A stretch of 64,000 nt of DNA from Methanolobus sp. WCC4 (GCF_038022665.1 NZ_CP150629.1:2276480-2340479); one strand, 5' to 3'. Numbered from the stretch's first letter, positions 18,534 to 35,746 are shown. Notes: generated by a model not told the origin, from the letters alone. Numbers and translations: made by a program.

Positions 18534-19130
18534 TCATTCAATAGCTCCATTCTTGACGACATTCTCTATCCATAATAGCAGGAGCAGGATGATCAGAAAA
18601 ATAAACGTCACCTGCCACAGGTAATAATGCACATAACTAAAAAGTGAAGGATACATCAAACCCACAAAGGAAAGGAATACAAGCCTGAACATATTTATTG
18701 TCAGCATTGCAGGTATACCCAGAACTATACCAAGTGATCTTTTACGCATTGTGGTCGGATAAGCAAGCACACAGCCAGCATAGACCAATAGTTCATACAT
18801 CCCTGTACATTCATCTATGACCATTACAGAAAAGCCATTCATGTAAACTGACTGACCGGATGCAAAACTATCCACTCCGAACAATGACATCAGAACTGAA
18901 AGAGCATTTGCAGTCATCGCACTAAGGAATGTGAATCTATCCTGAAAAATTATATAGATCGCTGTGAAGAGTGCAATATACAACAAATAAGGACCTACGA
19001 ATCCAATGATATTTTCATGCCGGGCAAGAAAAGATGGTAAATAGTCCTTTAAGTGTATTGAAGGAACAGAATCCATTTCTGTTCCCTTGTGCTTCCTGGT
19101 ACCCTTTGGTTTCCTGCCTTTATTAGCCAT
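18534..19130 (-). CDS. artB: Archaeosortase, ArtB-like (VPxxxP-CTERM specific)
   Basis: 198 residues from the ATG at 19130 with GGAGG upstream. After a basic N-terminus (GRKPKGTRKHKG) there are about five or six membrane helices. The archaeosortase/exosortase catalytic triad is visible: Cys108 in DECTGMYE, Arg149 in NMFRLVFL and His168 in YVHYYLW. These enzymes cut C-terminal sorting signals and attach surface proteins to a lipid. The two genes directly upstream (19175-20719 and 20963-25255) encode exported proteins ending in VPxxxP, a membrane helix and a basic tail, the signal assigned to the ArtB class, so enzyme and substrates are side by side. The subclass is deduced from that pairing. 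Confidence 0.88.
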   Translation of the reverse strand: MANKGRKPKGTRKHKGTEMDSVPSIHLKDYLPSFLARHENIIGFVGPYLLYIALFTAIYIIFQDRFTFLSAMTANALSVLMSLFGVDSFASGQSVYMNGFSVMVIDECTGMYELLVYAGCVLAYPTTMRKRSLGIVLGIPAMLTINMFRLVFLSFVGLMYPSLFSYVHYYLWQVTFIFLIILLLLLWIENVVKNGAIE

Positions 19131-19174
19131 ATATCCTCCGGAAAATAAAGGAACTATTAAAAAAGAAGATGGAA

Positions 19175-20719
19175 TCAATCACGCTTTCTCAGTGTGATCA
19201 TTCCAAGGAAACCGAGTGCACCGATCATAGCCAGTATACCAACAGGTGTCAGTATCGGGACAACAGGCTGGCAGTAGAAATGACTTGGATCCTCATCTGT
19301 TACGACAGTACCCTGATCATCTTCACCAGTAACATCGGCAATGTTCTCATATTGAGGGATACAGTCATCAAGGGTGTCAGTGACAACATAGGTCCATACT
19401 TCCCCTACATCAAGGATGTCATCATTGTTAATGCTCTTGTCAACGATCTTATCGTCACCGATCGTACCGATCATATCATCCACAACAACGATATTGTTCA
19501 ATGGTACATCACCATTATTGGTTACGAAGTACTCCCAGGTTATGGTCTCACCAACCTCGATCTGAGGACCATTGGGGTAATCTGCATCCATTCCATTGGT
19601 GTGCTTCTCAATATCAATATCAGGTTCGCACCTTACAATATAGTGGCTTGGGTCCTCATCAGTTACCGGAATTACACCATAGAAACCTATGACATCGCCA
19701 ATATTGGCATACTGACCACATTCTGCCGTACCTTCAGCCTCATACGTCCAGGTTTCAGTAAGGTCAAGGATATCATCACCATTAGTATCACCACTCTGGT
19801 AGACTGGAACTACACCCTGATCATCTGTGACGACCACATTGCTCAGTGGCACATCTCCTTCATTTGTTACCACATATGTCCATGTGACATCAGCTCCATT
19901 CACCAGTTCAGGACCAGGTGGATTGTCAGCATTAACTCCATTTGTTGACTTCTCAATATCAATATCCGGATTTGGAACTACAATAGTTATAAGTGCCTGG
20001 TCCTCACCAGGAATATCAAGGTTTCCTCCGGCAGTTACTTCAACCTCGAATTCTTCACCGCCTGTAAGGTCGAAATAATTGCTAAGACCTGCTACCGATA
20101 TCTCATATACTGCATCTCCACTCTGACTGTTGGCAGCAACTACATCATTTTCATCGAAACCAGGGAAAGAACCTTCCAGAACGCTTACGCTCACATCATT
20201 GTTAGTAACAAGTAGAAGAACTCTCTGTGAACCCTGCCTGATAACTATACTGAACTGTTCACCAATACCAATACCTGTGATAGGTCGTGCAGTAACAGCA
20301 CCTGCGGTATCACCGTTATCTACAACGCTGGATATACTTGTATCTCCATCAAGATCACCCGGGAGACCATATACCGTAGACATACCGTAGAGTACATCGC
20401 CTACAGGATCATAACGTGCATAGAAACCCTTGAGATCATATCCGCTTTCAGCCGGACCTTCAGTGGCCATACTTTCAGAGAAACTCGTACCTGAATCCGT
20501 TAGTGGGTCCTCATCATACCAATTCCCATCCTGGAATATAACCATTTTATCTCCAAAAGGACCATTTACATCATAACCAGTACCTTCTGATTGCCCAAAA
20601 GCCCAGTTCTCGTCCCACTCATCCACTCCACGCACCCCATCCACGGTTATTGCTGCCATGGCACTGGGGACGGAGAATAGAATTACCAATATTCCGAACA
20701 TTACATGTAATCTGTTCAT
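19175..20719 (-). CDS. VPxxxP-CTERM surface protein with two DUF11-like repeats
   Basis: 514 residues from the ATG at 20719 with GGAG upstream. It opens with a signal peptide (ending SAMAA), then an N-terminal domain of about 210 residues (ITVDGVRGVDEWDENWAFGQ...) shared with the larger neighbour. Two beta-sandwich repeats of ~115 residues follow, each starting DIDIEK-TNG-ADxxPGP and carrying WxYVVTNxGDVPL and DEDPSHY, as in DUF11/DUF7507-type conserved repeats. It ends in VPILTP, a membrane helix and RKRD, an archaeosortase B sorting signal. The first gene downstream is that archaeosortase, 44 bp away. It is a short version of the ten-repeat protein upstream. A structural or adhesive surface role is inferred. 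Confidence 0.88.
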   Translation of the reverse strand: MNRLHVMFGILVILFSVPSAMAAITVDGVRGVDEWDENWAFGQSEGTGYDVNGPFGDKMVIFQDGNWYDEDPLTDSGTSFSESMATEGPAESGYDLKGFYARYDPVGDVLYGMSTVYGLPGDLDGDTSISSVVDNGDTAGAVTARPITGIGIGEQFSIVIRQGSQRVLLLVTNNDVSVSVLEGSFPGFDENDVVAANSQSGDAVYEISVAGLSNYFDLTGGEEFEVEVTAGGNLDIPGEDQALITIVVPNPDIDIEKSTNGVNADNPPGPELVNGADVTWTYVVTNEGDVPLSNVVVTDDQGVVPVYQSGDTNGDDILDLTETWTYEAEGTAECGQYANIGDVIGFYGVIPVTDEDPSHYIVRCEPDIDIEKHTNGMDADYPNGPQIEVGETITWEYFVTNNGDVPLNNIVVVDDMIGTIGDDKIVDKSINNDDILDVGEVWTYVVTDTLDDCIPQYENIADVTGEDDQGTVVTDEDPSHFYCQPVVPILTPVGILAMIGALGFLGMITLRKRD

Positions 20720-20962
20720 ATTTTCCGCTCCCATATCACTTATAAAGAGTATATTACTCAATAATGATTTAGTCAGCACAATATATATCGATGCAGCAAA
20801 CAAAGTTCAGTATTATCTTTAAGTAAAAATGTTCCTGAAAATGCATTTCAAGTTAAAACAAATATAAAAGGAATACCCTACTTCAAAAAATTTATGGAAA
20901 AAAAGTTTAATTGTTGATGCCAGGTAAAATCAGAACTTATTTTAAGAAAATAAAAGGAGGAA

Positions 20963-23900
20963 TTAATCCCTCCTTCTAAGATAGAATGACCCTACCAGTC
21001 CAAGAGATGATATGAATACCATCATTCCAACAGGACTCAACAGTGGTACTACAGGCTGGCAGTAGTAATTAGCTGCATCCTCATCTGTAACTTCATTGCC
21101 TTCAAACTCGCCTGTAACAACTGCAGTGTTCGTGTGCTGTGGAACACATTCCTGCATGCTATCACTTAGCTCGTATGTCCATACCTCACCCGGATCAAGA
21201 ATATCATCATTGTTGATGCTCTTTGAAATAATACTTGAAGGGGAGATCGTTCCCAGTTTGTCATCAACAACAACTATGTTCTCCAATGGAACATTGCCTG
21301 TGTTTTCCACAACAAAGGTCCAGATGATCCCATCACCCACAGCAAGCAGAATTCCAGGAGCCTGATCAGCATCATTTCCATTGATATATTTCTCAATATC
21401 AATGTCAGGTCCACATTCCACATTGTAATGACTTGGATCTTCATCGGTCACCGGAATGGCACCATAATGACCCACAACATCACCAATATTTTCGTACTGG
21501 CCACATTCAGCGGTTCCGTTTGCCTGATAGACCCAAACCTCACCTGGCATAAGCGTATCATCACCACTTCCCTGATCAGTGATAGTGGTTATGATACCAA
21601 GCTGGTCATCAGTGACGGTCACATTGGTAAGAGGTACATTACCTGTATTCGTGACAACATATTCCCAGATAACATCTGACTTGTAGACAAGTGTTGGTCC
21701 AGGTGCAACATCGGCATTAACGCCATTGGTTGATTTCTCAATATCAATGCGAGGTATACAGACGACATTATAGTGACTTGGGTCCTCATCAGCTACAGTG
21801 ACATCACCATAGTCACCGGTAACAGTACCGATGTTTGCATAGTCACCACATTCGGCTGTGCCGGTAGCTTCAAGGGTCCAGGTCTCACCAACTGCAAGGA
21901 TATCGTCACCATCTCCCTGATCGATGATAGTGGTAACAGTTCCAAGGATGTTGTCACTTACCTGGATATTGCTAAGATCGACGTTACCTGTGTTCTCAAT
22001 GACATAGGTCCACGTAACAGCATCACCACGATCCAGTGTAGGTCCCGGAGCACTATCTGCATCTTCACCGTTAGTGGCTTTCTCGATGTCGATGTCAGGA
22101 CATTCACCGAAGTAATGACTTGGGTCAGCGTCAGTTACAGTGACATCACCATAGTCACCGGTAACGGTACCGAGGTTGGCATACTGGCCACATTCAGCTG
22201 TACCTTCAGCCTCATAGGTCCAGGTCTCAGTAAGGTCAAGGATACCATCAGCATTGGTATCGCCACCCTGGAAGACAGCGATAACGCTCTGGTTATCAGT
22301 AACCACAATATTGCTCAAAGGAACATTACCGGTGTTGGTCACAACATAGGTCCACGTAACAGCATCACCTTCAGGGATACCGGGACCGGGACCAGTATCA
22401 GCATCTTCACCATTGGTAGCCTTCTCAATATCGATATCAGGACATTCACCGAAGTAATGACTCGGATCAACGTCAGTTACAGTTATATCACCATAGTCAC
22501 CGGTAACAGTACCGAGGTTGGCATACTGACCACATTCAGCTGTACCTTCAGCCTCATAGGTCCAGGTCTCAGTAAGATCAAGGATACCATCAGCATTGGT
22601 ATCGCCACCCTGGAAGACAGCGATAACGCCCTGATCATCAGTAACTACAACATTGCTCAGAGGAACATTACCAGTGTTGGTCACAACATAGGTCCAGATA
22701 ACAGCATCACCCTCTGGAATGCCAGGGCCGGGACCAGTATCAGCATCTTCACCGTTAGTTGCTTTCTCTATGTCGATTCCAGAACATTCACCGAAGTAAT
22801 GACTTGGGTCAGCGTCAGTTACAGTGACATCACCATAGTCACCGGTAACGGTACCGAGGTTGGCATACTGACCACATTCAGCTGTACCTTCAGCCTCATA
22901 GGTCCAGGTCTCAGTAAGATCAAGGATACCATCAGCATTGGTATCGCCACCCTGGAAGACAGCGATAACGCTCTGGTTATCAGTAACCACAACATTGCTC
23001 AAAGGAACATTACCTGTGTTTGTCACAACATAGGTCCACGTAGCAGCATCACCCTCGGGAATGCCGGGGCCGGGACCAGTATCAGCATCTTCGCCGTTAG
23101 TGGCTTTCTCAATGTCGATGTCAGGACATTCACCGAAGTAGTGACTTGGATCAGCGTCAGTTACAGTGACATCACCATAGTCACCGGTAACGGTACCGAG
23201 GTTGGCATACTGACCACATTCAGCTGTACCTTCGGCCTCATAGGTCCAGGTCTCAGTAAGATCAAGGATACCATCAGCATTGGTATCGCCACCCTGGAAG
23301 ACAGCGATAACGCTCTGGTTATCAGTAACCACAACATTGCTCAAAGGAACATTACCTGTGTTTGTCACAACATAGGTCCACGTAGCAGCATCACCCTCGG
23401 GAATGCCGGGGCCGGGACCAGTATCAGCATCTTCGCCGTTAGTGGCTTTCTCAATGTCGATGTCAGGACATTCACCGAAGTAGTGACTTGGATCAGCGTC
23501 AGTTACAGTGACATCACCATAGTCACCGGTAACGGTACCGAGGTTGGCATACTGACCACATTCAGCTGTACCTTCGGCCTCATAGGTCCAGGTCTCAGTA
23601 AGATCAAGGATACCATCAGCATTGGTATCGCCACTCTGGAAGACAGCGATAACGCTCTGGTTATCAGTAACCACAACATTGCTCAAAGGAACATTACCTG
23701 TATTGGTTACGACATAGGTCCAGATAACAGCATCACCTTCTGGGATACCGAGACCAGGACCAATATCAGCATCCTCACCATTTGTAGCTTTCTCTATGTC
23801 GATCTCAGGACATTCACCGAAGTAGTGACTTGGGTCCTCATCAGTGACTGTAATGTCACCAGAATCACCGGTAACATTACCCATGTTAGCATACTGGCCA

Positions 23901-25255
23901 CATTCAGCTGTACCTTCGGCCTCATAGGTCCAGGTCTCAGTAAGGTCAAGGATTCCATCAGCATTGGTATCACCACCCTGGAAGACAGCGATAACACCCT
24001 GGTCATCAGTAACTACAACATTGCTCAGAGGAACATTACCGGTGTTGGTCACGACATAGGTCCATGTAACAGCATCTCCCTCTGGAATGCCGGGACCAGG
24101 ACCAACATCAGCATCCTCGCCGTTAGTTGCTTTCTCGATATCGATGTCAGGACATTCACCGAAGTAGTGACTTGGATCAGTATCAAAAACAGGTATAACA
24201 TCAAAGAAGCCAACTGCTGTAGCATTGTTCTCGTACTGACCACATTCTGCAATTCCAGTTGCAATATAGATCCATGTCTCTCCGAGGTCCAGTGTCGAAT
24301 CACCATTTCCATTCGTGATTATGTCAGTAATTGGACCGAGTTTGTCATCTGTGACAGATACGTTCTCCAATGGCACATTACCGGTGTTGGTTACAACATA
24401 GGTCCAAAGTAGTTCATTACCCTGAGGTATTCCTGGACCTGGTGCTTCATCAGCATCCTCACCGTTGGTTGATTTTTCAATATCAATAACAGGGTTTGGT
24501 ATTTCAAAGAATACTGCCGCAATATCTTCGCCTACAATATCAAGGTTTCCGCCGGCACTTGAAGCCACACTGAATCCCTGACCAGGAGTCATATTGAAAT
24601 ACTGAGACAGATTCTGTACTGATATCTCATATACACAACTACTACAGTTATCAGGGCCAGCTGCATTGCTATTTGCTGCAACCACATCATTTTCATCCAG
24701 TCCTGTAAAACCTACTGTGCTAACAGTCCAGTTATTATTTGTGATCACTATCATCAGTGCTTTACCACCCTGGGATATCATGATACTCCATTGTTCCCCG
24801 GGACCGATTCCTGTAATATCTTTTCCAGTAACCGGCCCAAGTATATCACCATTTTCAGTAAGTCCAATTATGTTCCCATCACCATCAAGATCACCTGGAA
24901 GACCATATACAGTGGACATACCATACAGAGTGTCATTGATTATGTCATAATGAGCATATTGTCCTTTAATATCATATCCACTGGGATAAGGACCCTCAGT
25001 ACTTAGATTCTCATTGAAGTTGGTACCTGCATCAGCAGGAAGATCTTCATCATACCAGCTTCCATTCTGGAATACAACCATTTTATCTCCGAAAGGACCA
25101 TTTGGATCATAACTGCTACCATTTACCTGACCAAAGTTCCAGTCTTCACTCCATTCACCCGTACTTCGCTCTCCATCTACACTAATAGCTGCTGCAGTAC
25201 CCGATATCACAAGCATTGCCAGAGCTATCACAAAAATTAAATTATATTTTGTCAT
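20963..25255 (-). CDS. Giant VPxxxP-CTERM surface protein with ten DUF11-like repeats
   Basis: 1430 residues from the ATG at 25255 (GGGTGGGG upstream). Order: signal peptide; an N-terminal domain of ~220 residues, paralogous to that of the 514-aa neighbour; ten repeats each beginning xIDIEK-TNG-DAD; then VPLLSP, a membrane helix and RRRD (archaeosortase B signal). Repeats 2-7 are nearly identical to each other (114 residues each) and repeats 1 and 8-10 are more diverged. The repeat has two conserved cysteines (AECGQY and HYFGEC) that could form a disulfide, and many acidic residues that could bind Ca2+. It is likely an extended stalk on the cell surface, an adhesin or a self-recognition protein. 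The copy number of the 342-bp units is probably variable between strains. Confidence 0.9.
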   Translation of the reverse strand: MTKYNLIFVIALAMLVISGTAAAISVDGERSTGEWSEDWNFGQVNGSSYDPNGPFGDKMVVFQNGSWYDEDLPADAGTNFNENLSTEGPYPSGYDIKGQYAHYDIINDTLYGMSTVYGLPGDLDGDGNIIGLTENGDILGPVTGKDITGIGPGEQWSIMISQGGKALMIVITNNNWTVSTVGFTGLDENDVVAANSNAAGPDNCSSCVYEISVQNLSQYFNMTPGQGFSVASSAGGNLDIVGEDIAAVFFEIPNPVIDIEKSTNGEDADEAPGPGIPQGNELLWTYVVTNTGNVPLENVSVTDDKLGPITDIITNGNGDSTLDLGETWIYIATGIAECGQYENNATAVGFFDVIPVFDTDPSHYFGECPDIDIEKATNGEDADVGPGPGIPEGDAVTWTYVVTNTGNVPLSNVVVTDDQGVIAVFQGGDTNADGILDLTETWTYEAEGTAECGQYANMGNVTGDSGDITVTDEDPSHYFGECPEIDIEKATNGEDADIGPGLGIPEGDAVIWTYVVTNTGNVPLSNVVVTDNQSVIAVFQSGDTNADGILDLTETWTYEAEGTAECGQYANLGTVTGDYGDVTVTDADPSHYFGECPDIDIEKATNGEDADTGPGPGIPEGDAATWTYVVTNTGNVPLSNVVVTDNQSVIAVFQGGDTNADGILDLTETWTYEAEGTAECGQYANLGTVTGDYGDVTVTDADPSHYFGECPDIDIEKATNGEDADTGPGPGIPEGDAATWTYVVTNTGNVPLSNVVVTDNQSVIAVFQGGDTNADGILDLTETWTYEAEGTAECGQYANLGTVTGDYGDVTVTDADPSHYFGECSGIDIEKATNGEDADTGPGPGIPEGDAVIWTYVVTNTGNVPLSNVVVTDDQGVIAVFQGGDTNADGILDLTETWTYEAEGTAECGQYANLGTVTGDYGDITVTDVDPSHYFGECPDIDIEKATNGEDADTGPGPGIPEGDAVTWTYVVTNTGNVPLSNIVVTDNQSVIAVFQGGDTNADGILDLTETWTYEAEGTAECGQYANLGTVTGDYGDVTVTDADPSHYFGECPDIDIEKATNGEDADSAPGPTLDRGDAVTWTYVIENTGNVDLSNIQVSDNILGTVTTIIDQGDGDDILAVGETWTLEATGTAECGDYANIGTVTGDYGDVTVADEDPSHYNVVCIPRIDIEKSTNGVNADVAPGPTLVYKSDVIWEYVVTNTGNVPLTNVTVTDDQLGIITTITDQGSGDDTLMPGEVWVYQANGTAECGQYENIGDVVGHYGAIPVTDEDPSHYNVECGPDIDIEKYINGNDADQAPGILLAVGDGIIWTFVVENTGNVPLENIVVVDDKLGTISPSSIISKSINNDDILDPGEVWTYELSDSMQECVPQHTNTAVVTGEFEGNEVTDEDAANYYCQPVVPLLSPVGMMVFISSLGLVGSFYLRRRD
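22101..24152 (-). repeat. Six tandem 342-bp repeat units inside the giant surface gene
   Basis: The marker CATTCACCGAAGTA recurs at 22101, 22443, 22785, 23127, 23469, 23811 and 24153, a spacing of exactly 342 bp each time (114 codons). Units starting at 23127 and 23469 are almost identical at DNA level. The constant length and high identity indicate recent duplication or ongoing homogenisation by recombination. Confidence 0.97.
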
Positions 25256-25438
25256 TTGCCCCACCCTTATAAGTAAAAGATTTATTTCTATCAGGGAATA
25301 GTTTAACTAGAACCCTATTTAGCAGTGTAGCAAACAAATATCAGTAGGAATCCTCCGCAGCATACTGAAGAAGGATAGTTCCAGAACATAGAGCCGAAAG
25401 AAAAAGTTGCAAATATAAGGGATTTTTAGAAAGGCTTT

Positions 25439-26122
25439 TTAATCTTGATCCTTAACTTTAAGGTCAAGTTTTCCGGATAGTATGTCTTCAATTATTTTAA
25501 GGGACTCATCATCTATCTTTGTTCTTTTACCTTTATCCGTTCTTTCCATGTTATTATAATCAAAGATATTCTTGCATACACCATGACCTTTATCAAGAGG
25601 ATCCTGATCCTTAAGGAATATCATACAGCCTTCAAGGCCAATTTCTTTTTGGATATATTTCAATGCATAACCTACACCATAATGACATCCTACCCCAGGT
25701 AGAAAATAGTTGTAACCTTCCCTCTTTTTCATTTCAAGCCAGGGAAAGAGATTGGAATCACTATCAATTATAAATATCCGGTCTTTCGTGAAGCCTTTAG
25801 CCATTAAAAGGTCAACCAATCTACCAAGGGAACAGGGGACATTACACTTTTTACCTTCCAGTTTCAAACATTTCCTGTTTTTCCTGATCATCACATTATC
25901 AGATACAGGACAAACGTAATTGACGGAGGGTTTTGCACAATAAGGAATAAAAGAGACACAACTATCCAGCTCATCATCAACTATTCTCTGAATATCAAGA
26001 GAAGGTGTGGACAGAGCTACGGCAGAGCAAAGTAAATCCCTGTTCGCCTGGTTGAAACTCAACCTCTTTTCGATCATCCTCCTATTCAGCGAATAGGGAA
26101 CGAATGAATATAATTTTTCCAA
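25439..26122 (-). CDS. DUF116-like cysteine-rich protein (paralogue 1)
   Basis: 227 residues from a TTG at 26122; this start keeps the alignment with the paralogue at 26347-27075 (EKLYSFVPYSLNRRM versus RELIYGLIPYSIHQM). Conserved cysteines lie in YCAKP, CPVSD, CLKLEGKKCNVPCSLG, GVGCHYG, GCMIFL and GVCKN. The core from KCNVPCSLGRLVDLLMAKGF to the GC motif resembles DUF116 proteins of methanogens and bacteria, which may bind metal. It has no signal peptide, so it is cytosolic. It is the second gene of a tandem duplicate and lies in the surface-protein region. Function unknown. Confidence 0.65.
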   Translation of the reverse strand: MEKLYSFVPYSLNRRMIEKRLSFNQANRDLLCSAVALSTPSLDIQRIVDDELDSCVSFIPYCAKPSVNYVCPVSDNVMIRKNRKCLKLEGKKCNVPCSLGRLVDLLMAKGFTKDRIFIIDSDSNLFPWLEMKKREGYNYFLPGVGCHYGVGYALKYIQKEIGLEGCMIFLKDQDPLDKGHGVCKNIFDYNNMERTDKGKRTKIDDESLKIIEDILSGKLDLKVKDQD

Positions 26123-26346: not shown

Positions 26347-27075
26347 TTATGTGCTTGAAGGAATATCATTCGTATGGGGAGATCTTTGAGGAACATCAAC
26401 CATATCCTGATAATCACCAGATAGTATGCGGTCCATCAGAATGACAGTTTCCTTGTGGATCTTGGTTCTCTTTCCCTTATCCAGGCCTTCCATTCCCAGA
26501 TAATCATTCATGCACTTACAGACACCATTCTCTTTGTCTTCCGGACAAAAGTCATCTACAAATGCTATGCAACCCTTATAGCCAAGCTTCTTGCCAATAT
26601 AGTCGATCGCATAGGATACACCATACTTGCAGCCAGTACCCGGCATGAAATACTCATATCCTTCTTCCCTCTTTTGTTTAAGCCATGGGAAAAGATTGGA
26701 ATCACGGTCTATTATGAATATCTGATCCTTTGTGAAGCCATGTTTCAAAAGAACATCCACCATATCTCCAAGAGAGCAGGGAACCTTACATTTTCCGCCT
26801 GACACCTTGATACAGTTTTGATTTTTGCGATTGTGCTCCTTGTCCGATGTTGGACATTCATGGTCACCCATAGGTTTTGCACAATAAGGTAAAAAAGCAA
26901 CACACTTATCCAGATCATTCCTGACAACTTTGTTAATGTCAAGAGAATGAGGATACAAAGCAAGATGATTTTCTATAATTGTACTATCCTGTCTTTCAAA
27001 ATTACACTTCCATCTCACGATCATTTGATGAATTGAGTAGGGGATCAATCCATATATTAATTCTCGGATTAGCAT
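26347..27075 (-). CDS. DUF116-like cysteine-rich protein (paralogue 2)
   Basis: 242 residues from the ATG at 27075 with GGAGG five bases upstream. It is collinear with the 25439-26122 protein over nearly its full length and keeps every cysteine motif: YCAKP, CPTSDKEHN, CIKVSGGKCKVPCSLG, GTGCKYG, GCIAFV and CKCMN (an extra Cys here). The KCxVPCSLGxxVD core is DUF116-like. The aspartate-rich DRDSNLFPWL and DLDKGKRTKI-type stretches are shared too. The gap between the paralogues holds a hairpin (26310-26334), so they may be expressed separately. A palindrome lies ~120 bp upstream of this gene. Function unknown. Confidence 0.68.
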   Translation of the reverse strand: MLIRELIYGLIPYSIHQMIVRWKCNFERQDSTIIENHLALYPHSLDINKVVRNDLDKCVAFLPYCAKPMGDHECPTSDKEHNRKNQNCIKVSGGKCKVPCSLGDMVDVLLKHGFTKDQIFIIDRDSNLFPWLKQKREEGYEYFMPGTGCKYGVSYAIDYIGKKLGYKGCIAFVDDFCPEDKENGVCKCMNDYLGMEGLDKGKRTKIHKETVILMDRILSGDYQDMVDVPQRSPHTNDIPSST

Positions 27076-27369: not shown

Positions 27370-27639
27370 TCAAAGACCTAATTCTTTTGCAATCTCCTGG
27401 AACTCCTTCCCTTTTGAAGTTGTTACATACAGGTTTCCTTTGCGCTCTATCAAACCTTTTTCTTCTAACATCTCAAGATACCTGTTTACCATGTCAAAGT
27501 TCAAATTTGCACTGTAAACTATATGTGTTTTCTTAGCCCCCTCCAATGCAGCTTTTAATATCTCCACACTAATGGTAGTTCTGCTTCTTCTAATACAACC
27601 ACATCCATTAGTCACAACCCTTATACCTGCACTCCCCAT
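27370..27639 (-). CDS. Winged-helix regulator, paralogue of 18167-18364
   Basis: 89 residues from the ATG at 27639; the conserved part starts around residue 16. It has a helix (VEILKAALEGAKK), a recognition helix (NFDMVNRYLEMLEEKGLIE) and a wing (GNLYVTTSKGKEF), and the last 65 residues match the regulator at 18167-18364 closely. A short CGC sequence near the N-terminus (NGCGCIRRS) could bind metal, and a similar GC-x-x-IRRS is encoded ahead of the other paralogue's GTG. Alternative starts exist at the GTG codons inside. The paralogues bracket the archaeosortase/VPxxxP/DUF116 region, which suggests duplication of a regulator along with its target genes. Confidence 0.78.
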   Translation of the reverse strand: MGSAGIRVVTNGCGCIRRSRTTISVEILKAALEGAKKTHIVYSANLNFDMVNRYLEMLEEKGLIERKGNLYVTTSKGKEFQEIAKELGL

Positions 27640-27702: not shown

Positions 27703-28353
27703 CTATTTTTTGAATCCATACTTATAGGAAACAACAACAACTCCCACAAGGATAAGACCAAATATTGCGAGCGTACTACTTGCGCCATTTACAGGCGAAG
27801 ATCCTTCTTCAGCAATATCTTCCTCTTCTTCTACCGGACTTTCCAGTATTGTTTCCTCAATTGCAGATGATCCCGAGCTCTCAGCTTCCTCCTCTACAGC
27901 ACTTTCCGTAGTAGAAGCACTACCAAAACCTCCACCACCTCCACCTCCTGAAGAGGTCGATCTGGTTTCTTCTGTTGCTGTTGGCGGAGGAGAAGTTGCA
28001 CTAAGGTCAAGGGAAACCATTTCACCGGTCTGATAATCACTGAGATCTAATGTAGCTGTTTCCACGCCATTTACTTCGACCGTGACAACACTATGATCAG
28101 AACTCACTCCAAGCCTGTTACTTCGTTCATCCCCATAAAGACCTGCAGTTGTTACAGTTGTTGTAGCAACTGTCTGCCCATCATCAACAATCGTCACTTC
28201 TGTTCCTACAGGTGCAGGATTCCCATCCACCAATAAGTTCCCTCCTAATACTATTGGAGGGGCAACGGCTACAGCGGGTGCAGCTACCACTATGAGTGAG
28301 AACAGAATAATCAGTACTTTTAATGAAACACCATATATTTTACCACTTATCAT
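27703..28353 (-). CDS. Exported Ig-like protein with C-terminal membrane anchor
   Basis: 216 residues, ATG at 28353 preceded by GAGGTGG. It has a signal peptide (about 8-31), a small beta domain (about 35-115) that resembles a carboxypeptidase-regulatory/Ig-like fold (LLVDGNPAPVGTEVTIVDDG), then a Gly/Ser-rich linker and a long acidic Glu-rich linker. It ends in a membrane helix and YKYGFKK. No VPxxxP or PGF signal is clear before the anchor. It follows the cohesin gene (gap ~70 bp) in the same direction and may be the third gene of that surface operon. Function unknown. Confidence 0.75.
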   Translation of the reverse strand: MISGKIYGVSLKVLIILFSLIVVAAPAVAVAPPIVLGGNLLVDGNPAPVGTEVTIVDDGQTVATTTVTTAGLYGDERSNRLGVSSDHSVVTVEVNGVETATLDLSDYQTGEMVSLDLSATSPPPTATEETRSTSSGGGGGGGFGSASTTESAVEEEAESSGSSAIEETILESPVEEEEDIAEEGSSPVNGASSTLAIFGLILVGVVVVSYKYGFKK

Positions 28354-28424
28354 ACGTCCACCTCTGATAAATTAAAAAAGCAGTGAGTAAAACCTCACTG
28401 CAAATATTTCATTTGTCTTTCACT

Positions 28425-29906
28425 TCAGCCTAGCAGACACTCCTGGTCCACGAATACATAATATCCTTCATACATATTCATATCAAAGATATCAGTACCT
28501 ATCTGGTTACCATTGATGACTCCTTCCTCTCCATTGTAGCCCACATAAGCGAATTCATTTGTAGAAGCCACCCATGGTCCCTGAACCTTACTGTAGCAGT
28601 CGTCAATAGTAGACAGAGCGACCTCTGCAGGCAGTTCTACCATAGCAGTATGGCCAATCGCATTCCATCCAGGATAGAGCATCAGGGATGGTGGTGTGGA
28701 TGGTACCATTGGTATGAGATAGTCCTCATTGATGACCACTGTCTCGTCCAGGTTGTTGTGTACCCAGTAAGCCTTGAGTGGCTCAAAGTCGGTTGGTACT
28801 ACCATCATGCCTGTAGATGCGTCATCATAGAACACACTGTCAACTACACTGCTGTTGAAGTCCTGAAGCACGTAGTCAATGTTTCCATTCTCAAGTGTCT
28901 CTGGAATTGATATCAGGTTCCAGCCAGGCAGGAGGTCTATTCCTTCCGGCACGGGTATACTGCTTATTTCCACAGAATCATCAATTACATCGACATCTGG
29001 AATTACAGCTCCACCGTTTACAAGTGTGGCATCGTCAAGATCCAGACTATATGTTCCATCTGATGCACCTGCCTTGACCATAAAGTCGATGGTAAGTAGG
29101 GTACCAGCCTGCATGGTAGGTGTTGCATCTCCTGCTGCAAATGAGATCATTCCATCATCTGTGAAGTCTTTGACAACGATCACATCTGATCCTTCAGCTC
29201 CCATAAGTCCACTGTAGCTGGCTCCTGTAACACTAAGTGCACTGGAGTCATATATGAGGCTAAGGTCTACAGCAGAAATTGTGCTGTCCTCAGAGTCCAT
29301 TACTATAGTTGCCTGGAAGGTATCTCCTATTGAGAAAACACCTGCATCAGCTATGACCTGAACAAATGGATCATCTGAAGGAATTACTACATCATCACCA
29401 ATTTCTGCCTGTCCATCGTTGACCACAACACCTGGTATATCAGCTCCACCACTTATCAGTCTTGCATCTTTCAGATCAAGATCATACATTCCATCTGATG
29501 CACCTGCTTTTACAGCAAAGTTTACTGTAACAGCACTTCCTGCTTGTGCAGCAGGAGTTCCATCACCAGCTGAGAATGATATTTCTCCATCATCTGTGAA
29601 GTCCTTGACAACGATCACATCTGATCCTTCAGGACCCATAAGCCCATCGTAGGTAGCACTTGTTACACTAAATGCGCTTGTATCATATGCCATCTTAAAC
29701 GCCATTGCCTCAAGGGATGCTCCATCTGAATCAACATCTACTGTTACTGAGAACGTATCAGTAGGGGCAAGTCCATCAGTGAGTTCTGGATTAATTGATA
29801 ACGATGGTGCTGCTGCTGCAAATCCAATACCCACCATGAAACATGCACAAAATATCAAAAGGGAGATGGATGATGCCACCTTTCCCTTTATTTTTTCATT
29901 TGTCAT
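28425..29906 (-). CDS. Secreted protein with two cohesin-like domains
   Basis: 493 residues from the ATG at 29906 (GAGGTGA upstream); an earlier ATG overlaps the preceding gene. After a signal peptide (ends FAAAAP) come two cohesin-like domains of ~145 residues each. Both carry the pattern DTFSVTVDVDSDG, then YDTSAFSVTSATYDG, GPEGSDVIVVKDFTDDGEISF, and AVKAGASDGMYDLDLKDA. The C-terminal ~170 residues (PGWNLISIP, LKAYWVH, PGWNAIGH) match a domain type frequent in archaeal surface proteins. Cohesins bind dockerins, and the gene directly upstream, 13 bp away, encodes a protein ending in a dockerin; the two are very probably co-expressed partners. No C-terminal anchor is seen, so attachment may depend on the partner. 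Confidence 0.88.
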   Translation of the reverse strand: MTNEKIKGKVASSISLLIFCACFMVGIGFAAAAPSLSINPELTDGLAPTDTFSVTVDVDSDGASLEAMAFKMAYDTSAFSVTSATYDGLMGPEGSDVIVVKDFTDDGEISFSAGDGTPAAQAGSAVTVNFAVKAGASDGMYDLDLKDARLISGGADIPGVVVNDGQAEIGDDVVIPSDDPFVQVIADAGVFSIGDTFQATIVMDSEDSTISAVDLSLIYDSSALSVTGASYSGLMGAEGSDVIVVKDFTDDGMISFAAGDATPTMQAGTLLTIDFMVKAGASDGTYSLDLDDATLVNGGAVIPDVDVIDDSVEISSIPVPEGIDLLPGWNLISIPETLENGNIDYVLQDFNSSVVDSVFYDDASTGMMVVPTDFEPLKAYWVHNNLDETVVINEDYLIPMVPSTPPSLMLYPGWNAIGHTAMVELPAEVALSTIDDCYSKVQGPWVASTNEFAYVGYNGEEGVINGNQIGTDIFDMNMYEGYYVFVDQECLLG

Positions 29907-29919
29907 GATTTCACCTCGG

Positions 29920-32900
29920 TTAGAACTCATATACTCCAGCGAACTGTGCAAGGTCGATGACATCTATAGCTCCATCCTCATTGAAGTCGAAGATAGCATT
30001 ATAGTTACTATCGCCTTCTACACTGTCATATGCCTGAGCAAATGCAGCCAGGTCGAGAATATCGACAACCTCATCACCGTTGCTGTCACCCTTCATCTCA
30101 CTAGTTGGTGGTGCTATTGGTACAGCTCCGCCGTTCATGTAGATTCCAGTTCCATCTGTTGGATCATATGTGAACATCATCCTTGGATAGACTGGCTGGA
30201 TCTCGACATTGTCACATATCACAGTGTTTGGTGCTGTGAATGAACTTGTCAGCAGATAGTCACCGTCTCCGCCTGCATTTGGTACATCCGGATAGACAAA
30301 CTCCTTGTAGAAGTCTGGCATTGTGTAGATGTGTAGCCACTTCCAGGTCTCATATGATTCAACTGGAGTAGTGTCTGCAGAAGTACCAACTATACCACAA
30401 CCCTCCCTGAGTATCTCAAGCAGGTTGGTGTGGAATCTGTCCTCATAGTCCTTGCCTGTGAAGTAGATCTCAGTTGCTGGCACCTCGAACATGCGTTCTG
30501 CGATGGTGTCATATGGTGTGTCGATGTTCATGTCGTGATACCAGAGCAGGTCATCAGTTTCACTTGAATCATACCACTGTCCGTAATAGCAGGTCATAGC
30601 CTCTGCCTCATCGGATAGAGTATGTGGAATGTCGATGTCATCGATCATAATGTGGTCACCATTGAATGGTGGAAGCACAGGAATGATCTCACCGTCATAT
30701 ACAGCCTTCTTGACAACAGAAAGGTCGTTCAGTGAAACATCTGCATGTTCTGGCAGTGGGTTTCTGATAGTAATGTACTTGACATTGTTCTCTTCAGGAC
30801 CATAGATCATGGCAACATCGTATTCAGCACCATCTACAAAGAATGTTTCACTGGTGTGAAGCAGACGTCCGACACGCATCAGTACCTTGCTACTGTCTAC
30901 ACTGGTACCAAGGACCTGCATTGCCCATGGATCATAGAAGTCTGGAGAGTCCATTACCACAGTGTGACGTCCTGCACTAAGGATACCCTGCTCAACATTA
31001 AGGCTGTGCAGTCCACCTATCTGTTCAGGAAGCACATTACCGTTGTAGTATACTTCGACTGCAACTCTGTCGATCTCACCCTCACCATCATAGTAGATAC
31101 CTTCGATCTCTACAATGTGATCAAGGAACTGTATCCTATCACCGACAGCAACTGCGAATATTTCAGAACCAATGGCTACATCCTTCCTTCCATCAGCATT
31201 GAAGTCAGTTGCTCCAAGCAGGTAGGTCATGTCGTCTTCACCATCGTAGTTCATGTCAAAGCTGTCAAGACCTATCTGAGTATCATCCATGTCGGATACC
31301 GGGAACCAGAAGTATGTCCAGAGTCCTGCATCCTGGTCCATGAAGTCCTTGAAGCTGTCAGGGTTACCTTCGGAAGTTGCCATACCTGCGGTTGGCTGGT
31401 AGTGCTTGTCAATGAACATGTATGTGTACTCATTGATCACATCCTCCCAGACATAATGGTTGTGCTTGTCAATATATGTTCCATATACCTCATCAAGCCA
31501 TACCATACCGGTAGGTTCGGTGTATTCAGGAACGAACCACTGTCTGAAGAATACCTTCTCATGGGAATCCTTGTTATCCACTACAATTCCTGCCTTGATC
31601 TTGGCTGGGTTGAGTGTTACAAAGTCCTTCTGTGGAGCTTCAGAGCTCAATGGATCGAATGGTGCTTCAGGATCAGTGTATGGGAATGCGGCACCAATAC
31701 CGTCTTCACCATAGACTCTGAGTCCATTGGTTTCGGTGTCGATCTCATTTACATAGATATCCTCAACTCCTGTCTCCTGGTCATAGACGAACATGAGTCT
31801 CTGTGGCCAGACGAAGTTGTCAACGTCGCAGAGGTATTCATAGAAGTAATCACACTTCTTTGAGTTCTCTGCTCTGAATGAACTTGTGAGCAGGAAGTCA
31901 CCTGTACCATCATCTGCATCAGGCAGCTCTGGGTATACGAATGTCTTGTAGAAATCAGGCATTGTGTGGATGTGTAGCCACTTCCATGCTTCAGTGCCTT
32001 CTATCTTACTAAGGATCGGATCCTCATCAAGAATCTCGAGAAGGTCTGTGTGGAATCTAGGTTCAATGTCCTTGTCTGTGAAGTAGATAAGCAATGGATC
32101 TACATCGTATATCTTACGCTCTTCTACAGTATCGTATGCATCAAGTATACATTCATCCTCATACCATTCTCCATCAGGAGCATCAGAGTTCAAAATTGAA
32201 CCTATATATCCTGTGTACTCACAGCAGTTTTCTGTGTGTGGAATGTTGATGTCATCAACCATTGTGTGCACCTTGTTGAATGGTGGCAGCAATGGGAGAT
32301 ACTCCTCGTTGTCGACCATTTCCTTGACAACTGAGAGGTCATTGAGTGAAACATCAGCGTGCTCTGGAACTGGGTTTCTTATGGTGATGTATTTAACACT
32401 GTTATACTCTGGACCATAGATCCTTGCAACGTCATATTCTGCACCATCTACGAAGAATGTCTCTCTTTCGTAGAGCTGGCGACCTACTGTAAGAAGGATC
32501 TTCTCACTACCTACACTGGTAGCTTCTACCTCAAGGTACCATGGTTCATAGAACTGTGGCTTATCAAGGGTTACAGTATGACGACCTGCACTAAGAATTC
32601 CCTGCTCGACATTGACTACGTGCAGTCCACCTATCTGCTCAGGTTCCTTGTTACCATTGTAGTATACATAGAATGCAACTCTGTCGATCTCGCCTTCACC
32701 ATCGTAGTAGACACCTTCTACCTCTACAATGTGATCAAGGAACTGGACAGACTCACCGACACCTACAGCCATAAGTTCGGAACTTATCTTTATGTCCTTG
32801 TAGCCATCGTAATTAAAGTCCCCTACTTTCTTGAGTATGATCATGTCGTCTTCGTTATCTCCGTCGATATCACAGCCATCAAGACCGATCTGTGCATCGT

Positions 32901-33516
32901 CATTGTCTGCAACCGGGAACCAGAATGTTGTCCAGTAAGCACCTGATGTGCTCATTGCTGTTGCAGCCCTTGGCTCATAGTGCTTGTCAACGAACATGTA
33001 GGTATACTCTGTGACCACATCTTCCCATGTGTACTCGTTGTGATCAGGTTCCCATACAACCTTTTTAATAGGCTTCTGGAACTCATCAAGAGAGATTTCC
33101 CTCAGTTCATCATCGGTTAACAGCTCTGATGCTTCCTCTACAGTTCCGTCATCAAGTGTACGATCAAAACAGCGTCTGAAATCATCGAGCCAGACCATAC
33201 CGGTTGGTTCAACGTACTCAGGTACGAACCACTGTGTTGCAAAGACCTTCTGCTTGGAGTCGATATTATTTACAACAATATCATCCTCCATTAAGGCCGG
33301 ATTGAACGTTACAAAATCTTTTATTGGCGATTCATTGTTCATTGGATCGAACGGAGCTTCCGGATCAGTGTACGGGAATGCCGCACTGAGTCCATCTTCT
33401 CCATAGATACGCAATGAACTTACATTATCTTGAGCACTTGCAATTGCTGCTATTGAAAATATAGTAATGAGAGCAATAGCAACCACTAAAAGCTCGTGCT
33501 GGAACTTCACTTTCAT
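29920..33516 (-). CDS. Large duplicated surface protein with C-terminal dockerin
   Basis: 1198 residues from the ATG at 33516 with GGAGG upstream. It consists of a signal peptide (1-29), two homologous halves of ~550 residues each (both starting LRxYGEDG-AAFPYTDPEAPFDP and containing FVPEYxEPTGMVWLD, GEGEIDRVA, ILSAGRHTV and FFVDGAEYDVA), and a type I dockerin at 1143-1198 with two calcium loops (DSNGDEVVDILDL and DFNEDGAIDVIDL). It is likely a surface-layer or S-layer-associated protein. The dockerin could dock to the cohesin protein encoded next. No C-terminal membrane anchor is present. The repeated halves are diverged, so the duplication is old. Confidence 0.88.
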   Translation of the reverse strand: MKVKFQHELLVVAIALITIFSIAAIASAQDNVSSLRIYGEDGLSAAFPYTDPEAPFDPMNNESPIKDFVTFNPALMEDDIVVNNIDSKQKVFATQWFVPEYVEPTGMVWLDDFRRCFDRTLDDGTVEEASELLTDDELREISLDEFQKPIKKVVWEPDHNEYTWEDVVTEYTYMFVDKHYEPRAATAMSTSGAYWTTFWFPVADNDDAQIGLDGCDIDGDNEDDMIILKKVGDFNYDGYKDIKISSELMAVGVGESVQFLDHIVEVEGVYYDGEGEIDRVAFYVYYNGNKEPEQIGGLHVVNVEQGILSAGRHTVTLDKPQFYEPWYLEVEATSVGSEKILLTVGRQLYERETFFVDGAEYDVARIYGPEYNSVKYITIRNPVPEHADVSLNDLSVVKEMVDNEEYLPLLPPFNKVHTMVDDINIPHTENCCEYTGYIGSILNSDAPDGEWYEDECILDAYDTVEERKIYDVDPLLIYFTDKDIEPRFHTDLLEILDEDPILSKIEGTEAWKWLHIHTMPDFYKTFVYPELPDADDGTGDFLLTSSFRAENSKKCDYFYEYLCDVDNFVWPQRLMFVYDQETGVEDIYVNEIDTETNGLRVYGEDGIGAAFPYTDPEAPFDPLSSEAPQKDFVTLNPAKIKAGIVVDNKDSHEKVFFRQWFVPEYTEPTGMVWLDEVYGTYIDKHNHYVWEDVINEYTYMFIDKHYQPTAGMATSEGNPDSFKDFMDQDAGLWTYFWFPVSDMDDTQIGLDSFDMNYDGEDDMTYLLGATDFNADGRKDVAIGSEIFAVAVGDRIQFLDHIVEIEGIYYDGEGEIDRVAVEVYYNGNVLPEQIGGLHSLNVEQGILSAGRHTVVMDSPDFYDPWAMQVLGTSVDSSKVLMRVGRLLHTSETFFVDGAEYDVAMIYGPEENNVKYITIRNPLPEHADVSLNDLSVVKKAVYDGEIIPVLPPFNGDHIMIDDIDIPHTLSDEAEAMTCYYGQWYDSSETDDLLWYHDMNIDTPYDTIAERMFEVPATEIYFTGKDYEDRFHTNLLEILREGCGIVGTSADTTPVESYETWKWLHIYTMPDFYKEFVYPDVPNAGGDGDYLLTSSFTAPNTVICDNVEIQPVYPRMMFTYDPTDGTGIYMNGGAVPIAPPTSEMKGDSNGDEVVDILDLAAFAQAYDSVEGDSNYNAIFDFNEDGAIDVIDLAQFAGVYEF

Positions 33517-33822: not shown

Positions 33823-34221
33823 CTAATTCTGTAATTCAATAGCTACTGTATCATATGCGAAAATGATCCACAGAAGGAACGGATAAGCTATCCTTCCAAT
33901 GGCATAAATATAAAGTAATTGCTCCTGATAATAGATAAAAAGCAACTGCAAGTAGACTATCAGCAAATTGAAGGAAATGGTCAGTAAAAGACCAATAAAA
34001 AGAACCTTTATAGTCTTTTTCTTTTCAAAACCAGTCGCAAGTACAAGAGCTACGAAAGGGATGAAATTCAAGGGGAGATAGAATAAAAAAAAATTCGTGA
34101 GATCTACAACAATAACGGAAGCAGCAAAATACCTCCCGCCAATAGGGATCCATACTATGAACAAAATAGTCAGATAAATAAAAAACCTTTTTAAGAAAGG
34201 TATCATTCTTATCGTGTTCAT
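33823..34221 (-). CDS. Small polytopic membrane protein, unknown
   Basis: 132 residues, mostly hydrophobic, with about four membrane helices (around 11-28, 38-62, 70-92 and 104-124). The loops are short and basic on the cytosolic side (FLKRFF, GFEKKKTIK). No motif of an enzyme or transporter was recognised, and it lacks the Cys/Arg/His triad of archaeosortases. It follows the PGF-CTERM-like cohesin gene by 22 bp on the same strand, so it may help that protein's export or processing; this is inference. Confidence 0.68.
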   Translation of the reverse strand: MNTIRMIPFLKRFFIYLTILFIVWIPIGGRYFAASVIVVDLTNFFLFYLPLNFIPFVALVLATGFEKKKTIKVLFIGLLLTISFNLLIVYLQLLFIYYQEQLLYIYAIGRIAYPFLLWIIFAYDTVAIELQN

Positions 34222-34243: not shown

Positions 34244-35746
34244 TCATGAATTACGTTTCTGAAACCTTATTGCCATGTAACATACCATTGATATGGACAG
34301 GAGGAACATAGTAGAATTGAAACCTGGTACTTCCTGTGTCTGGATTCCAGCATCCTCCATTTCTTCCACCACTTCTTCTGAAGTTGATGTCAACGAATCG
34401 GTTTCATCAGGAGTGGCCAATTTGAAAACTACCGGAACATCGGTTATTCCGATATTTGAAGCCTCCCTGTTAATTATTGCATATATCTCATCCATCAATG
34501 GTTCTCTGTCGATATCTGCAGCCTGGTTGATGTTTATCTCAAAGTATCCATCAGGAGACAATCCTGTACTCAGAAGCACGCCACCCTGCAAATAACTGTC
34601 CATCTCATCATTGATGTTAAGTGAGATATCATATGAATCCTGGTAATACCATTGCCAGCATTCTTTTTCAGTCCTGATATCAGGGATATCACCGACTGTA
34701 CCTATAACCATCGGATCGTACAGGGAACTCTGATCATTCGTGAGATTCTCAATACCCTCATTCTCCATTTCCTGCACCCTCATCAGTAATTCCTGAAGAT
34801 CAGCACTTATTGCAGTGGTCGTACCTTCACCAAATTCCACAGGTACGTTCTCTATACCCGCATCCTTTGCTTCTTCATCGATCATTTCATAGATATTCTC
34901 CACCTCTGAACTTTCAACCATGAGAGGTTCATAGAATACGACCACCAGGTATCCTGCAGAATTTGTGCCAAGGGACATGATCTTGCCCTGCCAGAAAAGG
35001 TATTCCCCTTCAAACTCATTCATGATCCTGCTTTCCAATACAAGAATATCCTGAGACCAGTCCTCTCCATTCTGTACCTGCCCACGCCTGCTCAATACTT
35101 TGTAATCATCAGGAATAGAACCAAAAAGGTACGAATACTCAAACTGTGCTTCTGAGGGCAAAGACGATGAACTCAAACTTGACATACTCTCTGAAGACTT
35201 ACCAAAATCGAGAGTATCGGGTTCTGTCATAGCAGCACCTTCCACATCCCCGATTACTATAATACTACCTGTCGCCTTACCACTGAGTTCATCAAGGTCC
35301 GTATCTATAAGTTCGACCTCTGTGAAACGTATACTGTGCATACCATTTTCTACAGTGTCTTTCACCTGGAACTCAATACCTGACATTTGCATGGGTTGTA
35401 ATATAGAGATACCACTTCCAAATGCAAAACCATAGTTAATGGTACCGGCACCATCATCACCACTCCCGGGTTCCAAAAGTATATCTGTATCAAAAATGCT
35501 TCCTTTTGTTATTCCAACTACTTCAAAGACACCGGGATCATAATCAATTTGTACATGTGCCGCCCTTAGCTGCTCACCATCTGAGTCAATAATGATATCT
35601 ACAAAAAAAGTCTCATCAGGAGACAGGCCAATTTGAGATTCTGGCGATATTAAAGCAACTGCCTCTGCCGATACAATTCCAGTGGTCATCAGTAAAATGA
35701 AAACTGTCAGGACTAAGAATTTGAAAGATCCGTAATTACTCCTCAT
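34244..35746 (-). CDS. Cohesin-domain surface protein with PGF-CTERM-like tail
   Basis: 500 residues, ATG at 35746 behind AAGGGGTTG. Signal peptide (ends GIVSAEA), then one cohesin-like domain (about 30-165) with the DETFFVDIIIDSDGEQLRAA and VQIDYDPGVFEVVG pattern, and a long alpha/beta region with two similar segments (around 225-290 and 365-430; VLLSTGLSPDGYFEINI versus KIMSLGTNSAGYLVVVF). The end reads QEVPGFNSTMFLLSISM followed by a basic RFQKRNS, a PGF-CTERM-type sorting signal handled by archaeosortase A rather than ArtB. It is a second potential dockerin receptor, here anchored to the membrane, near the dockerin protein at 29920-33516. Confidence 0.83.
   Translation of the reverse strand: MRSNYGSFKFLVLTVFILLMTTGIVSAEAVALISPESQIGLSPDETFFVDIIIDSDGEQLRAAHVQIDYDPGVFEVVGITKGSIFDTDILLEPGSGDDGAGTINYGFAFGSGISILQPMQMSGIEFQVKDTVENGMHSIRFTEVELIDTDLDELSGKATGSIIVIGDVEGAAMTEPDTLDFGKSSESMSSLSSSSLPSEAQFEYSYLFGSIPDDYKVLSRRGQVQNGEDWSQDILVLESRIMNEFEGEYLFWQGKIMSLGTNSAGYLVVVFYEPLMVESSEVENIYEMIDEEAKDAGIENVPVEFGEGTTTAISADLQELLMRVQEMENEGIENLTNDQSSLYDPMVIGTVGDIPDIRTEKECWQWYYQDSYDISLNINDEMDSYLQGGVLLSTGLSPDGYFEININQAADIDREPLMDEIYAIINREASNIGITDVPVVFKLATPDETDSLTSTSEEVVEEMEDAGIQTQEVPGFNSTMFLLSISMVCYMAIRFQKRNS

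Follow-up and report, generated by a model that had tools for sequence, protein, structure and literature searches.

A conserved dockerin-cohesin gene pair in Methanolobus as a probable noncellulosomal extracellular connector

The cohesin-dockerin joint is best known from the cellulose-digesting complexes called cellulosomes. What it might hold together in an archaeon is the question raised by a 64,000-nucleotide stretch of Methanolobus sp. WCC4 (the window; C1:2276480-2340479 of the closed 2.85-Mb genome), in which the gene for a dockerin-bearing protein, here called DOC, is followed directly by a gene for a cohesin protein, COH2. A sequence-only reading of this locus had suggested that the pair assembles the cell surface instead of an enzyme complex. 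We propose that DOC and COH2, in all likelihood, together make up an extracellular complex, a noncellulosomal connector in which a small scaffoldin would hold an accessory protein of the envelope. The view that the dockerin and its neighboring cohesins are a working pair is strongly supported, as far as sequence evolution can speak to it, by coevolution of the two modules, by a maintained symmetry of the kind associated with dual binding, and by conserved adjacency of the genes. The five cluster genes named here (DOC, COH2, COH1m, TM132, and SP216) all lie on the minus strand.

DOC (29920..33516) is an open reading frame for a secreted protein of 1,198 amino acids with a signal peptide, a tandem module of about 550 amino acids, and a C-terminal dockerin, in agreement with the earlier description of a duplicated protein ending in a two-loop dockerin. 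The two halves (residues 37-590 and 601-1128) are 55% identical (BLASTP, 561 bits), and this alignment, together with alignment A2, in which Asp-rich D.N.DG.DD motifs are conserved, places body repeats 1 and 2 at 31723..33423 and 30097..31743. The dockerin (residues 1142-1198; 29923..30093) matched Dockerin_1 (PF00404) over residues 1142-1191 with 27.6 bits against a curated Pfam cutoff of 22.9, and its top match in the PDB was the dockerin chain 2y3n_B (E = 2.4e-4). Both of its calcium loops, DSNGDEVVDILD and DFNEDGAIDVID, are canonical, with D/N at positions 1, 3, 5, 9, and 12, and the recognition segments read ILDLAAFAQ and VIDLAQFAG. The body had no Pfam match and nothing significant by PDB profile search or by Foldseek with a weak structure model. 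PF07752 is the archaeal surface layer (S-layer) protein itself, not the S-layer homology (SLH) domain; kinship of the DOC body with this family was considered and rejected (no Pfam match; hhalign probability of 0.25%).

COH2 (28425..29906) encodes a secreted small scaffoldin of 493 amino acids that begins with a signal peptide. Inspection of the start site placed the true start at the ATG at 29906, 13 nucleotides past the DOC stop codon and with GAGGTG in front, which upholds the claim of a two-cohesin gene 13 bp downstream; the listed open reading frame start at 29963 lies inside the overlap with DOC in another frame. Cohesins 1 (residues 36-169; 29400..29801) and 2 (residues 183-314; 28965..29360) were recognized by Pfam (PF00963, 6.9e-15, 55.9 bits over two stretches, above cutoff), by our own hidden Markov model (HMM), by profile matches to the solved cohesins 4ums, 2vn5, and 1g1k, and by Foldseek, which matched the type II cohesin dyad 3l8q (E = 3e-11) and single cohesins with target-TM values of 0.71 to 0.75. 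The C-terminal "GWN" domain (28428..28943), which has two GWNLI...GYY/YWV repeats, is covered by no Pfam model. A gap of 306 nucleotides precedes DOC and a stem-loop followed by TTTTTT comes after COH2 (28380..28401; consensus match only), so that the two genes may form one transcript ending at the stem-loop.

Matches to DOC at 63 to 78% identity were almost all Methanolobus records. COH2 was present in 15 of 27 Methanolobus genomes and absent from 12, and DOC was found in all sampled COH2 carriers and in none of the sampled noncarriers; two genomes outside the DOC sample (G150 and G152) have both genes, and in one of the 15 carriers, the fragmented draft G139, only a related cohesin-dockerin protein was seen. 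(Locus labels stand for genomes as follows: L053, G033; L054/L050, G120; L055/L046, G093, M. vulcani; L048, G150, M. bombayensis; L049/L058, G135, M. psychrotolerans; L052, G152; L057, G077; L059, G073; L060, G065; L061, G061; L062, G124; L063, G087. More distant archaeal families are labeled f3, f4, f5, f9, f10, and f20.) The order DOC-COH2-SP216 is maintained in the Methanolobus loci, with three cohesins per COH2 in most main-clade relatives and two in the window. DOC also lies directly upstream of COH2 in f3, f4, f5, and f20, one genome of f20 having two pairs of this type. The DOC proteins of f3, f4, and f5 have a dockerin or a dockerin-like sequence at the C terminus, and cohesins or a domain resembling them are encoded by the next gene; Pfam overlooks some of these distant-family modules (L065 and L064), and L068 falls below the cutoff. 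Additional domains vary by locus (VWA in L051, fasciclin in L054, and MopE in L065), and the element constant across these loci is the connector. At L069 (G090), the DOC homologue has a cytochrome-c-like domain and the COH2 homologue a cupredoxin, possibly a redox version of the pair.

Coevolution was tested at 13 Methanolobus loci by comparing differences in dockerin recognition with differences in the COH2 cohesin segment comprising approximately strands 3 to 6. With the DOC-body difference removed, the two were tightly correlated (partial Mantel r = 0.90, p = 1e-4), and they remained so with the rest of the cohesin also removed (r = 0.61, p = 1e-4); the dockerin-cohesin correlation on seven representatives alone gave r = 0.78 (p = 1e-4), whereas dockerin recognition against the GWN domain, given the DOC body, gave r = 0.12 (p = 0.21). 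Mantel tests of this kind leave some tree effects, but the comparisons of individual loci are clear. Between the window and its closest relative, L053, the DOC body is 83% and the GWN domain 75% identical, with only 10% identity in the recognition positions and about 30% in the cohesin segment. L062 and its clade-mate L060 differ in the same way (body, 83%; recognition, 0%; cohesin segment, 30%; GWN, 84%), while the window and L062, whose bodies are 51% identical, share 40% of recognition positions and 57% of the cohesin segment. In the cohesin tree, window cohesins 1 and 2 are the sisters of L062 cohesins 1 and 2 (support of 0.94 and 0.99), and in the DOC-body tree, L062 groups with L060, L061, and L063 (support of 100) in a clade other than that of the window. 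The segment of strands 3 to 6, taken as the candidate dockerin-binding face, thus covaries with the dockerin in sequence. A single contact may be visible between the two modules, as an acid at dockerin position 15 and an Arg at one site of the cohesin are jointly present or jointly absent in 20 of 20 loci (11 of 11 after collapsing lineages, p = 0.006, for a site picked after inspection).

The matched parts are physically adjacent, because doc encodes its dockerin at the 3' end and coh2 its cohesins at the 5' end. Sliding identity showed a divergent block, contiguous across the gene boundary, that runs from the dockerin through both cohesins, includes the signal peptide, and stops before the GWN domain. 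Its edges in the comparison of L062 with L060 are compatible with a single recombination tract, and the cohesin tree together with the coh2 start region in L062 suggests exchange between clades. A swap of the whole block as the sole cause in the window was rejected, since the framework of the window dockerin remained like that of L053 (33 of 45 positions identical) while recognition changed (1 of 12 identical). Both substitution and exchange therefore seem to have contributed.

The symmetry of the dockerin was tested at recognition positions 10, 11, and 13-19 of 14 representative homologues, with halves paired across species as the null. Positions 10 and 11 are established determinants of specificity (PMC8063739). 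The two halves agree at 98 of 126 recognition cells against 40.9 expected (standard deviation of 6.5; none of 20,000 shuffles reached 98), and in Methanolobus alone they match at 56 of 72 against 29.2 expected (1 of 20,000 shuffles). Symmetry was weaker at loop positions 2-9 (55 of 112 against 41.4) and was not significant there in Methanolobus alone. Recognition residues change freely between species, yet they match within one protein, and in most species the same residues are encoded by silently different codons in the two halves, which implies that the amino acids and not the DNA are conserved. Gene conversion was rejected on this ground as the source of symmetry for most species; the halves of the L068 dockerin are near-identical in DNA, and recent conversion is possible there. 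The window dockerin is among the less symmetric (I/V, L/I, and A/Q). Taken across the homologues, the pattern is that expected of a dual-binding dockerin, and it speaks for selection acting on both faces.

The genome as a whole has 14 cohesin and 7 dockerin matches. The dockerin proteins examined (DOC and CAP-domain, NosD-like beta-helix, and cohesin/lectin-like proteins) contained no glycoside hydrolase family, as the sequence-only reading had supposed for the locus, and its proposed search for further dockerin proteins turned up these clients. COH2 has the scaffoldin with multiple cohesins that characterizes a cellulosome, but dockerins on plant-cell-wall enzymes, its other characteristic, are lacking here. 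Unlinked dockerin proteins in main-clade genomes (CAP-domain proteins, NosD-like beta-helix proteins, and small cohesin-dockerin adaptors) tend to share the dockerin type of the host DOC: position 11 is Ile in all three G120 proteins (DOC and its two clients), Asp in most genomes of the FDDFVEF type, and aromatic in G152, and position 14 is Arg in both the DOC and the CAP protein of G077. In the window genome, a CAP protein (C1:416584) is a second client with a dockerin of the window type (IIDLGAF/ILDLGAF). This client-DOC matching is significant (7 of 20,000 genome shuffles reached it), but shared descent contributes to it, and for that reason we use it as no more than support. Two paralogous clusters elsewhere in the genome (L070/L071; G000:C1:2624000-2629000 and 2764000-2769500) have another dockerin type, GDxNGDxxLTALDAL, together with laminin-G/ConA-like domains and proteins that contain both cohesin and dockerin.

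From these observations, a scheme for the complex can be suggested. DOC would be exported, and its C-terminal dockerin, when loaded with calcium, would dock on the COH2 cohesins in either of two orientations related by 180 degrees. COH2 would act as a secreted scaffoldin with two cohesins, or three in many relatives, so that one molecule could hold at least two DOC proteins, or could pair a DOC with a different dockerin-bearing client, for instance the CAP-domain protein. The GWN domain is assumed to fasten the complex to glycans or the S-layer, and the outcome would be an accessory envelope layer or an adhesin array, not an enzyme complex. Several observations weigh against this proposal. The structure models are poor for the DOC body (predicted local distance difference test [pLDDT] of 41) and modest for COH2 (51.6 overall and about 70 in the cohesins), and no membrane anchor was predicted or recognizable in COH2, which weakens the case for attachment to the cell. 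The window CAP client matches DOC by residue class and not by identity, and exact matching to the host DOC also fails for the clients in G135 and for CAP2 in G073 and G033. Finally, when the DOC dockerin and the two COH2 cohesins of the window changed type, the cohesin of the nearby COH1m did not follow and is still of the Arg/GSGDDGAGTI type.

COH1m (34244..35746) is itself the partner on which another explanation would turn. Its one cohesin passes the PF00963 cutoff (1.5e-8, 35.4 bits), and its tail, VPGFNSTMFLL..FQKR (APGF... or TPGF... in orthologues), resembles a PGF-CTERM signal in its PGF motif, hydrophobic stretch, and basic end, although the NCBIfam PGF-CTERM model did not match; with archaeosortase A in the genome (265 bits), it may be a lipid-anchored cohesin. 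The earlier reading was correct about a third cohesin gene, with a possible anchor, but not about its distance of about 2 kb, as only 0.73 kb separates the end of COH1m from the start of DOC downstream of it, and COH2 is about 4.3 kb away. Its place in the same cluster, its anchor-like tail, the 14 cohesins in the genome, and the case of L057 (G077), where, as also seen in the cohesin tree, the COH1m cohesin switched along with COH2, could all favor capture of the DOC dockerin mainly by COH1m or some other cohesin protein, with COH2 binding other dockerins and the adjacency being incidental. We consider this unlikely, as the unswitched COH1m cohesin makes the window COH1m a doubtful partner, probably one that does not bind the DOC dockerin, and in the L060-L063 clade, DOC-COH2 remains with no COH1m beside DOC. 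It is very improbable that the modules are decaying or structural, with symmetry and adjacency as relics that have no current binding and with the matched divergence produced by block recombination alone. The contiguous divergent block with tract-like edges in L062 against L060 would fit such an origin, and dockerin symmetry has been viewed as possibly functionless (PMC8063739). However, nearly every homologue retains the loops and the recognition symmetry despite synonymous codon divergence, unlinked dockerins of the same type occur in several genomes, and block replacement does not predict a window dockerin changed only at its recognition positions.

Two further possibilities concern what the DOC body is. 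That DOC is the main lattice protein and COH2 a linker of its subunits is improbable to us. DOC is large, duplicated, and exported, and in G033 and G073, COH2-type cohesins occur on PF07752 proteins, but the body has no profile similarity to PF07752, proteins of that family occur in the same genomes (148 of 150 in the order, the window genome among them), and the cassette is missing from the 12 Methanolobus genomes noted above. A role for DOC as an S-layer replacement was rejected for this reason, and because the PF07752 proteins are present regardless, the DOC body is regarded as accessory. The suggestion of the sequence-only reading that the pair assembles the cell surface therefore survives in part: an envelope role fits the glycosidase-free dockerin proteins, the signal peptides, the sorting-signal tails, and the PF07752-linked cohesins, but it would not be that of the lattice itself. 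The latter cohesins belong to a second scaffold, L112 (G073) and L113 (G033), which combines PF07752, PKD, three COH2-type cohesins, and GWN, in one case with NosD repeats, and is the best clue that the S-layer is where COH2-type proteins act. A catalytic or electron-transferring complex, in which the body would be an unrecognized enzyme or redox carrier, likewise has little to commend it: the additions in L069 and the conserved Asp-rich motifs point that way, but the cytochrome-c-like and cupredoxin domains are restricted to single lineages and the body matches no enzyme family or fold.

If DOC and COH2 are connected as proposed, the joint itself may be exchangeable. A phylum-wide search found DOC-body proteins in f10 with no recognized dockerin, mostly no cohesin neighbor, and a GWN-like end, which a home-made profile matched in five proteins at E values of 4e-8 to 6e-5, a weak HMM match to the COH2 domain. 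At the C terminus of the DOC-body protein in G287 (f9, L152) there is an EF-hand-like module other than the dockerin, and the following gene encodes GWN together with a duplicated beta-sandwich other than the cohesin. L154 (G309) and L152 alike have DOC homologues ending in an EF-hand-like module beside genes with a beta-sandwich-like domain of the DLPxG..LPxGW/F type, and the arrangement is possibly an alternative calcium-dependent connector. Elsewhere in the G287 genome neither module was detected, and a search of four other genomes found none of this type. Were the f10 and G287 forms true equivalents, the dockerin-cohesin bond would replace a covalent connection of the body to GWN. Repeats of the GWN kind are found in other surface proteins too, so that the equivalence of the fused form is suggestive only. 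We tentatively advance, as a possibility rather than an expectation, that one pair of surface units, the DOC body and GWN, is joined within one polypeptide in f10, by dockerin and cohesin in Methanolobus, f3, f4, f5, and f20, and in G287 by an EF-hand module facing a tandem beta-sandwich, perhaps an undescribed analogue of cohesin-dockerin, and that within Methanolobus, specificity turns over by matched replacement of neighboring gene ends.

The remaining neighbors offer some context for the cassette. TM132 (33823..34221), a small multispan membrane protein between COH1m and DOC, is syntenic in the main clade only, and SP216 (27703..28353), the conserved gene downstream of COH2, has a signal peptide, a Ser/Gly-rich stretch, and a C-terminal membrane segment (both assigned by synteny and hydropathy). 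A gene for an Sso10a-family chromatin protein (27370-27639) adjoins the cassette in most Methanolobus loci and is near it in L051, L067, and L068. Two homologous Cys-containing proteins (25439-26122 and 26347-27075) are syntenic with the cassette in the main clade; 25439-26122, the one of the two that was scanned, had no Pfam match. Beyond them is a cluster (18537-19178, 19175-20803, and 20963-25264, all on the minus strand) of archaeosortase B (TIGR04144, 185 bits against a cutoff of 150) immediately downstream of the genes for two DUF7507/DUF11 repeat proteins with tails of the VPxxxP type (VPLLSP and VPILTP), for which it is likely the dedicated sortase. The gene at 20963-25264 encodes 1,433 amino acids with about ten similar DUF7507 repeats, and the long antisense open reading frame at 21773-24412 is probably a by-product of these repeats.

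The clostridial cellulosome, with its type I, dual-binding dockerins (PDB 2vn5/2vn6, 1g1k, and 6kgc), uses the same two module families as DOC and COH2 and shares with them a two-loop dockerin symmetric at its recognition positions and tandem cohesins on a noncatalytic scaffoldin. It differs in that the dockerin proteins examined here have no glycosidase or cellulose-binding domain, the COH2-type scaffoldin consists of two or three cohesins plus GWN, and the main client, DOC, is large, has no enzyme match, and is encoded directly upstream. In Bacteroides cellulosolvens, ScaB combines SLH domains with cohesins (PMC8063739) and so ties cohesins to the S-layer, much as the G033 and G073 proteins may do with PF07752 in place of the SLH domain; the window COH2 has no PF07752. 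The relevance of dual binding in dockerins has been called elusive and perhaps a by-product of duplication (PMC8063739). Here, both sets of half-recognition residues track through several changes of specificity while codons drift, which argues for selection on both faces.

Noncellulosomal archaeal cohesin-dockerin pairs are already known. That of Archaeoglobus fulgidus (Bayer 1999, Haimovitz 2008, and Peer 2009, as cited in PMC9012536), like DOC and COH2, occurs without cellulose degradation, and specific binding of archaeal modules has been reported according to PMC9012536; as far as they are cited there, those reports do not describe a conserved doc-coh2 operon or paired switching. Archaeal cohesins and dockerins occur irrespective of cellulose use, and PMC5244752 calls their function not known. 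No paper on the doc-coh2 operon was found in a literature search with most subscription journals outside its reach, and what appears to be new is the conserved operon and the evolutionary evidence for archaeal dual binding and matched specificity switching, together, possibly, with covalent and alternative-connector versions of the joint. A further parallel is that of the anaerobic methanotrophic (ANME) archaea, related organisms whose repertoires also include scaffoldin-like proteins with multiple cohesins and S-layer/dockerin proteins, and in which these modules have been proposed to attach proteins to the outer layer (PMC9012536 and PMC5244752). The surveys, in the portions of text available, give domain content without pairings, whereas here one pairing is proposed from coevolution. 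Experiments on which dockerin binds which cohesin have been called for (PMC9012536), and the doc-coh2 operon offers a concrete pair with natural mismatched controls (the window, L053, L057, L060, and L062), its natural matched variants being a potential source of orthogonal connector pairs.

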